Positions 48,267 through 49,830 of a stretch of 64,000 bases of DNA are shown here, in pieces (position 1 is the first letter of the stretch; the number at the start of each line of letters is the position of its first letter). Source of the stretch: Aequorivita sp. HC6-5 (GTDB lineage: Bacteria; Bacteroidota; Bacteroidia; Flavobacteriales; Flavobacteriaceae); the NCBI GenBank assembly GCA_905182755.1, contig CAJJCS010000005.1:186001-250000 (forward strand), in the 5' to 3' direction. The notes under the pieces are model-generated. The model was not told the origin of the DNA and made no database searches. It saw only the letters and a program-made list of their open reading frames with translations. The translations under genes and the position numbers were made by a program.

Positions 48267-48380
48267 AATGCTTTGGTGTATGTTACTACAAATATTGCAA
48301 ATAAAATTCTTATTCGAAGGATGTTACTGCAAACTCGCGAGGCAATTTGCATTAAAGTTTTTTAATCTTAAACAAACATG

Positions 48381-48388
48381 TACCTTTG
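48381..48388 (+). promoter_or_regulatory. -7 box for metK
   Basis: TACCTTTG fits TAnnTTTG; transcription would begin about 48395, just before the riboswitch aptamer at 48399. Confidence 0.6.
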
Positions 48389-48398
48389 CTTTATAATT

Positions 48399-48497
48399 AA
48401 GAGGAAAGATTTGACTGCTTGCAACCTCTTTCTGAAATATATATTTCAGAAAAAAAATTCTAAATTACCTTTAGAGTTTAAATGCTAAATCAGTGAA
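48399..48497 (+). ncRNA. SAM-II riboswitch upstream of metK
   Basis: The core matches the SAM-II (metA-type) aptamer: P1 AAGAGG (48399-48404) / CCTCTT (48425-48430), enclosing GATTTGACTGCTTGCAA. The 3' element TAAATGCTAAATCAGT lies at 48479-48494. Its CAGT (48491-48494) can pair with ACTG (48414-48417) as the pseudoknot. Between P1 and the 3' element there are about 48 extra nt, including a perfect hairpin CTGAAAT/ATTTCAG (48432-48449). SAM binding here would report the product of MetK, the next gene. Confidence 0.88.
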
Positions 48498-48538
48498 TTG
48501 CACTTTTTGCAATCTTCTGTGGACCCTAGGTCAAATCT
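48497..48538 (+). promoter_or_regulatory. Probable expression platform of the SAM-II riboswitch
   Basis: GTCAAATCT (48530-48538) is the exact complement of AGATTTGAC (48407-48415) in the aptamer loop, so it can unfold the ligand-binding core. It can also sit in a small GACC/GGTC hairpin (48522-48532). A second hairpin, ATTGCA/TGCAAT (48497-48513), lies between. No T-run follows, so control of translation or RNA decay is more likely than termination. Confidence 0.6.
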
Positions 48539-48573
48539 ACCCTATTTTACTAAAATCATTAAACCCCATTTAT

Positions 48574-49830
48574 ATGGCGTATTTATTTACCTCAGAGAGT
48601 GTTTCTGAAGGACACCCAGACAAAGTTGCAGATCAAATAAGTGATGCACTTATAGACAACTTTTTAGCCTTTGACCCTAAGGCTAAAGTAGCTTGTGAAA
48701 CCCTTGTAACAACGGGCCAAGTTATATTGGCAGGAGAAGTAAAAAGCAGTGTATACCTAGATGTTCAAAAAATTGCTCGCGATGTTATCAATAAAATTGG
48801 ATATACTAAAAGTGCATATCAATTTGACGGAAACTCTTGTGGAATACTTTCTGCAATACATGAGCAATCTAGTGATATTAACCAAGGCGTAGATAAAACA
48901 AATCCCGAAGACCAGGGTGCTGGTGACCAAGGAATGATGTTTGGTTATGCTACAGATGAGACAGAAAACTTCATGCCTTTAGCCCTAGATTTATCTCATA
49001 GGCTACTTATTGAACTAGCACAGTTGCGTAGAGAAGAAAAAGATATTCCTTACCTAAGACCTGATGCAAAATCTCAGGTAACTATTGAATATTCTGATGA
49101 TAATATACCGCAAAGAATAGATGCTATTGTAATTTCAACCCAACATGATGATTTTGACAGTAACGATACGCGCATGTTGGAAAAAATAAAAGAAGATATT
49201 ATTACTATTTTAATTCCGAGGGTTATAGCAAAATTAAAACCAAACATACAGGCTTTATTTAATGATGCTATTACATACCATATCAACCCAACAGGAAAGT
49301 TTGTAATTGGTGGTCCTCATGGAGATACGGGTTTAACTGGACGTAAAATTATTGTAGACACCTATGGCGGCAAAGGAGCTCATGGTGGTGGTGCTTTTTC
49401 TGGAAAAGACCCAAGTAAGGTTGACAGATCTGGAGCTTATGCTACAAGACATATTGCTAAAAATCTAGTTGCTGCCGGGCTTTGCAAAGAAGTTTTGGTT
49501 CAAGTTTCTTACGCCATTGGTGTTGCAGAGCCAACTAGTATTAACGTAGATACCTATGGAACATCTAATGTGAAACTAACAGACGGGGAGATTAGTGAAG
49601 TTGTTGAAGGCCTTTTTGACATGCGCCCTTATTTTATAGAACAACGCTTAAAGCTGCGCCAACCAATGTATAGCGAAACTGCTGCATATGGACACATGGG
49701 CCGTGAAAACAAAGTAGTTACCAAAACCTTTACCATACCTAATGCCAAAAGCAAAACAATGGAGGTAGAACTGTTTACCTGGGAAAAATTAGACTCTGTA
49801 GAAAAAGTTAAAAACGCATTTTCTTTATAA
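48574..49830 (+). CDS. metK: Methionine adenosyltransferase (SAM synthetase)
   Basis: Makes S-adenosylmethionine from methionine and ATP. The 418-residue product starts [20 protein letters not shown], with the catalytic His-Pro-Asp. It also has the metal site [15 protein letters not shown], then [21 protein letters not shown] in two blocks, and [19 protein letters not shown]. The frame opens at 48493, but that part is the riboswitch leader. A SAM-II riboswitch in the leader implies feedback repression by SAM. A terminator follows. Confidence 0.97.

Follow-up and report, generated by a model that had tools for sequence, protein, structure and literature searches.

SAM-II is a reviewed example of a small pseudoknot switch that hides the ribosome site directly. 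SAM-I and TPP riboswitches are examples of strand exchange. Exchange of a strand with the expression platform is stated for riboswitches in general in a passage of one earlier report (PMC2258182), while passages of a 2024 review class SAM-II under direct occlusion (PMC10907184). A long-loop type of SAM-II, RF01726, is named in text from Weinberg 2010 (PMC2864571) and again in the entry for PMC7682815. Across the open-licence literature on SAM-II that we searched, taken without the supplement of PMC2864571, we found no account of an anti-aptamer strand. Here we describe such a strand in a metK leader from Aequorivita sp. HC6-5. The leader lies in the window, by which we mean the whole 64,000-nt stretch of DNA that was analysed, and its features are as follows.

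48381-48388, plus strand: candidate promoter TACCTTTG, fitting TAnnTTTG, with a predicted RNA start near 48394 and no good -33 element seen
48400-48429, plus strand: SAM-II P1 and loop L1 with core GATTTGACTGCTTGCAA, from the RF01726 match
48400-48404 with 48425-48429, plus strand: P1 pairing, paired and invariant in 11/11 aligned leaders (100% of cells)
48407-48415, plus strand: core AGATTTGAC, by sequence
48414-48420 with 48487-48494, plus strand: pseudoknot P2, ACTGCTT with AAATCAGT, by sequence; 89.4% of cells paired in 11 leaders
48430-48451, plus strand: inserted hairpin 1, TTCTGAAAT/ATTTCAGAA, from the genus alignment
48455-48479, plus strand: inserted hairpin 2, AAATTCTAAA/TTTAGAGTTT, from the genus alignment
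48484-48494, plus strand: SAM-II 3' strand GCTAAATCAGT, by sequence
48497-48513, plus strand: small hairpin ATTGCA/TGCAAT, 3' of P2; 81.5% of cells paired
48522-48532, plus strand: small hairpin GACC-CTA-GGTC, into which the anti-aptamer extends with its 5' end; in the genus alignment, only 59.1% of cells are paired
48529-48543, plus strand: anti-aptamer, GGTCAAATCT at 48529-48538 with 48407-48416 (one G-U) and CCT at 48541-48543 with AGG of P1 at 48402-48404
48566-48577, plus strand: weak local hairpin CCAT-TTAT-ATGG containing the metK start codon; 77.3% of cells paired
48574-49830, plus strand: metK, S-adenosylmethionine synthetase, an open reading frame of 418 aa from the ATG at 48574

The locus has the aptamer sequence, P1, the long loop and the phylum in common with RF01726, whose Rfam model spans 60 positions and ends with the aptamer, leaving the downstream anti-aptamer outside it. 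With RF00521, the type of alpha-proteobacterial metA and metX, it shares P1 and L1, the pseudoknot P2 and the conserved core; a review describes RF00521 as directly occluding a ribosome site that lies within P2 (passages of PMC10907184), whereas the start codon in the window lies about 80 nt off. Like the window leader, S. meliloti metA has a distant start, 74 nt downstream of the riboswitch site, and alternative SAM-free structures are predicted for S. meliloti SAM-II, with metZ predicted to rearrange into a terminator (passages of PMC9373788). Unlike in the window, the Shine-Dalgarno sequence of S. meliloti metA lies within the riboswitch (passages of PMC9373788). As in other strand-exchange classes, an aptamer strand would pair with the platform when ligand is absent; what differs in the window leader is that this aptamer is a pseudoknot of the SAM-II class and that the invasion would take in P1 as well as the binding core.

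The aptamer, at 48395-48494, is of the long-loop type and exceeds the gathering score of the Rfam covariance model RF01726, with 54.9 bits against a cut-off of 44. It has P1 and a pseudoknot P2 with the core elements GAUUUGACUGNUUGCAA and GCUAAANCAG, as members of SAM-II do, and a gene of SAM metabolism, metK, begins downstream at 48574, its product 84% identical to homologues in Polaribacter records. The element upstream of metK is a predicted SAM-II riboswitch and would bind SAM. The initial annotation had placed every element correctly and had rightly seen a SAM-II aptamer before metK, though the model that matches is RF01726 and not the RF00521 it had named. The automatic RF01726 alignment misplaces the 3' strand into the insert, ending at 48473, a strand that by sequence we place at 48484-48494. 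Elsewhere in the source genome (an assembly of 1.89 Mb, 77.5% complete) RF01726 has no match, so that the metK leader is the sole one. The candidate promoter fits TAnnTTTG, which we take to be the Bacteroidetes -7 promoter motif; a sigma-70-type scan offers TAAACA-17-TATAAT at 48369-48397 (10/12) as an alternative, with 2 sites found against a mean of 1.3 in shuffles.

RF01726 matches occur in 10/11 genomes of the window's genus, in 283/299 genomes drawn from the family and in 26/198 of a phylum-wide draw, 19 of the 26 lying in the window's own family. The leader of one genus member, L119, is identical to that of L035 (Patiriisocius marinus). The window's leader also has a near-identical counterpart in L230 (genome G161), which is assigned to another genus, and mis-binning is a possible source of the near-identity. 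Within P2, the unpaired step 48418/48490 is C with T in the window leader; among 129 leaders with a near-perfect 3' strand, it is A/G in 107, C/T in 7 and something else in 15. In L116 and L117, two leaders of the window's genus, the anti-aptamer is kept but the P2 3' strand (GCTAAAAAGAAATATT) is without its CAGT end; P2 may be lost or altered in them.

An inserted hairpin had been reported between L1 and the 3' strand, and its length had been taken as exceptional. The insert is there, as two hairpins (48430-48451 and 48455-48479) rather than one, but its length is ordinary and we ruled it out as a novelty: loops of at least 22 nt occur in 130/218 parsed metK leaders of the family, and a long-loop type is already in Rfam. 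Leaders with such loops fold better than their dinucleotide shuffles, with a mean z of -3.25 and z below -1 in 92%. Among the 11 aligned leaders of the window's group, hairpin 1 has two-sided changes in 4/7 counted pairs, with only 74.0% of cells paired, while hairpin 2, which is missing from 4/11, has 88.4% of cells paired and a two-sided change in 1/10 pairs. The insert is thus an ordinary structured component of long-loop SAM-II, consistent with the Rfam name. In the small hairpin at 48497-48513, one pair is A-U in place of G-C in 4/11 leaders.

Downstream of the aptamer, the 9-nt complement to the core that had been noted, GTCAAATCT, does sit at 48530-48538; the full pairing is longer, joining 48529-48538 to 48407-48416 with the CCT/AGG pairing in addition. 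Because this predicted helix shares 48402-48404 with P1 and 48414-48416 with P2, it is incompatible with the SAM-bound fold, and the two are mutually exclusive. The minimum free energy fold of 48395-48590 includes the anti-aptamer helix at -41.7 kcal/mol (z -3.96; 0/200 shuffles as good). In a comparison of hand-drawn folds, in which neither P2 nor SAM contributes to the energy of the bound fold, the anti-aptamer fold lies 9.1 kcal/mol below the bound one (-36.0 versus -26.9). At 63/145 family sites, a count without a shuffle baseline, a perfect 4-bp hairpin ends on NGTC. There, as at 48522-48532, the hairpin takes up the anti-aptamer's GTC and leaves AAATC free, in the manner of a toehold.

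Judged from family comparisons of sequence, the anti-aptamer pairing is conserved and covarying across the family; the proposal was to count as refuted if relatives did not keep GTCAAATCT and its partner, and they do keep them. The family set comprised 241 loci (L001-L031 and L112-L321), part of all family matches, from which 218 metK leaders were parsed: 12 loci had no core within 4 substitutions, 7 no parsed metK start (among them L248, which does read as metK) and 4 no 3' strand, and 30 named loci among L032-L111 that pass the same filters were excluded from the family counts. When the strand equivalent to GAGGAAAGATTTGACTGATTGCAA was matched to the platform of the same leader, 162, 131, 79 and 52 of the 218 leaders proved to have a perfect complement reaching 7, 8, 9 and 10 bp or more, as compared with 35.0, 11.7, 3.0 and 0.9 expected from dinucleotide shuffles, 23, 11, 4 and 1 for a reversed-strand control and 13, 4, 0 and 0 for a sense-copy control. 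A chance complement was rejected on this ground, at least 8 bp being reached in 131/218 against 11.7 expected. Those 131 complements span GATTTGA in 111 cases, lie on the CTGATTGC side in 11 and on the P1 side in 9; in 56/218 leaders even a 7-bp complement is absent. The mean duplex energy of NNNNGATTTGAC with its own platform is -9.25 kcal/mol versus -5.33 shuffled, a gain of 3.9, whereas four other windows beat their own shuffles by at most 0.9 kcal/mol. Swapping platforms among leaders, with a slightly wider window, lowers the number of stems of at least 9 bp from 81/218 to 47.8 per 218; since swapped platforms still pair well, the pairing reflects partly plain conservation and partly a leader-specific match. 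Among the seven family loci without a parsed metK start, L027, L248 and L278 have a 9-bp complement close downstream, L280 has one of 8 bp and L005 one of 8 bp far downstream, and L121 and L279 have none above 6 bp.

Covariation was read position by position in the 133 leaders whose core contains ATTTG and whose platform contains CAAAT just once, with permutations that ignore relatedness among leaders. At position -1 (131 leaders), A/U in 64 and G/C in 28 make 92 Watson-Crick pairs against 60.8 permuted, and at position 0 the count is 110/133 against 98.1; in neither case was the observed value reached in 2000 permutations. Covariation at positions -3, -2 and +6 of the table was not significant, and at -4, +7 and +8 the aptamer side is invariant. 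Relatedness enters in a tree of sister pairs built from 300 nt of metK in 216 leaders: of 73 pairs that differ in the aptamer strand, 45 favour the strand's own partner and 20 the swapped one, with 8 ties (Wilcoxon 8e-6; sign test 0.0013). In the 11-leader alignment of the window's group, pairing stands at 89.4% in one part of the anti-aptamer helix and at 90.9% in the other, and no pair of the helix is changed on both sides. The leader has one of the features expected of strand exchange, a conserved second pairing with which the aptamer fold cannot coexist. That the anti-aptamer is kept, and changed in step with the core, in many relatives points to a way of switching with which SAM-II is not commonly credited.

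We propose that this SAM-II riboswitch works by strand exchange, and we give the whole explanation, comprising sensing, polarity and output, a probability of roughly 0.7. At high SAM, the aptamer, which is transcribed first, would close as P1 and the pseudoknot P2 and stay closed, turning metK off. At low SAM, 48529-48543 would pair with the 5' strand of P1 and the 5' half of L1, the invading helix removing P1, the SAM-contacting segment and part of P2, so that metK would be on. Because the anti-aptamer fold is the lower in energy, SAM binding during transcription would decide between the two. The SAM-free fold is the on state in other SAM riboswitches of metK, and by this analogy the anti-aptamer helix is most likely the low-SAM structure, in which metK stays on. 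We infer SAM binding, this polarity and the order of folding for the window leader, and the start-codon step from some relatives only. In those relatives, the output would fall on translation, the freed anti-aptamer lying in the loop of a hairpin that abuts the start codon, the 5' arm of which would alternatively pair with the P2 3' strand when that strand is free.

The window's family is thought to depend little on Shine-Dalgarno pairing. The distance of about 80 nt between the aptamer end at 48494 and the start codon at 48574 does not fit direct occlusion, and in 218 leaders the 3' strand lies 42-200 nt from the start codon (median 64). In two groups of leaders, the anti-aptamer is enclosed by a hairpin with its 3' arm adjoining the start codon, of the type TTGCTTT/AAAGCAA (the next pair being A-U, U-A, G-C or C-G) or TACTTCTTTA/TAAAGAAGTA. 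Start-codon stems of at least 7, 8 and 9 bp that enclose the anti-aptamer number 23, 16 and 6 of 160, against 10.2, 2.5 and 0.8 expected, whereas stems of at least 5 bp are not enriched (77/160 against 84.2), and across 78 sister pairs these stems show no significant covariation (34 better, 28 worse, p 0.16). The 5' arm of the hairpin also pairs with 5-7 nt of the P2 3' strand in 14/17 arms, hand-picked and taken without a control (15 of the 16 with stems of at least 8 bp, L309 being excluded, and two with 7 bp). P2 3' strand-platform stems of at least 6 bp occur in 53/218 leaders versus 23.8 expected from shuffles; as a general second exchange this pairing was rejected, the energy of a leader's own duplex being -6.17 against -6.24 permuted. 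The motif CCAT-N3..6-ATGG is found at the start codon of 10/218 family leaders, nine of them of the window's leader type. Nine leaders of the window's type show no predicted change between the two folds in how open the start region is. Over all 218, openness changes by +0.03 on average, by more than +0.1 in 50 and by less than -0.1 in 23. In 148 leaders, the start region pairs with what lies upstream at 0.207, versus 0.200 with the upstream part shuffled (p 0.57), and the unpaired fraction is slightly lower than shuffled (0.500 versus 0.522, p 0.01); a count of 35/148 real values above 0.4 against 8/148 compares single values with 12-shuffle means and carries no evidential weight. Masking of the start region as a family-wide rule is therefore unsupported, given 0.207 against 0.200 and stems of at least 5 bp at 77 against 84.2. 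Masking of the ribosome site may operate, indirectly, in leaders with a start-codon hairpin, and the output is most likely on translation, as we suppose for the window leader too.

These observations also bear on other accounts of the leader. The P2 3' strand, some 80 nt before the start, might itself be a ribosome landing site hidden by SAM binding, the anti-aptamer merely helping the aptamer to open; such a landing site has been proposed for S. meliloti metA, which needs the riboswitch site yet starts 74 nt downstream (passages of PMC9373788), and 48480-48490 of the window is unpaired and A-rich in the SAM-free fold. This arrangement nevertheless seems unlikely, in that no Shine-Dalgarno-like sequence was seen in the window's P2 3' strand and the distance from that strand to the start codon is so variable among the 218 leaders. 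Were control instead exerted on transcription, one of the two states would form a terminator before metK, as terminators often follow the SAM-II leaders of alpha- and beta-proteobacteria (passages of PMC2258182 and PMC1273637). Against this, a scan of the window leader alone, from 48270 to 48620, which unusual terminators would escape, gave 0 terminator-like sites, and the hairpin at 48497-48513 is A+T-rich and followed by CTTCTG; we consider attenuation quite improbable.

It is very improbable, finally, that the complement arose by chance or is a conserved motif of some unrelated kind, such as one bound by a protein, with the aptamer alone regulating. Conservation of CGTCAAAT is strong in its own right, and the C at its start is unpaired with the aptamer in 98/133 leaders, as such a motif would have it. 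But the extra C may be explained by a small GACG/CGTC hairpin present at 57/145 sites, some leaders use shifted registers, and the strand covaries with the aptamer both at positions -1 and 0 and in the sister pairs.

Beyond the window, we lean towards the view that SAM-II in Flavobacteriaceae generally acts by strand exchange and not by direct occlusion, the anti-aptamer invading P1 and the SAM-binding segment, and that some groups have a three-way exchange that ties the P2 3' strand to an arm of the platform and to a sequence at the start site, the last being a mimic of the P2 strand. If true, a family-wide covarying anti-aptamer would mean that the same aptamer has been fitted with a different output. 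The comparison outside the family left out L344, L346 and other named loci without a core, as well as L338, L342 and L345, which are without a metK start. Among 15 metK leaders assigned to Bacteroidales by their titles, the complement in L071, L075 and L103 is reached by at most 3/100 shuffles, and in the other 12 by more. Within the order of the window, a different family is represented by L323 and L330, each with a 7-bp complement that 22 and 21 of 100 shuffles, respectively, also attain, and L074 (titled Chryseobacterium) has a 10-bp complement. In L071, L074 and L103, the downstream complement faces the half of the core towards CTGATTGC in place of GATTTGAC, as it does in 11/131 family leaders. 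Elsewhere in the window, at 2097-2164, lies an S15-Flavobacteria ribosomal protein leader, which scores 73.5 bits with RF03161 (against 46.5).
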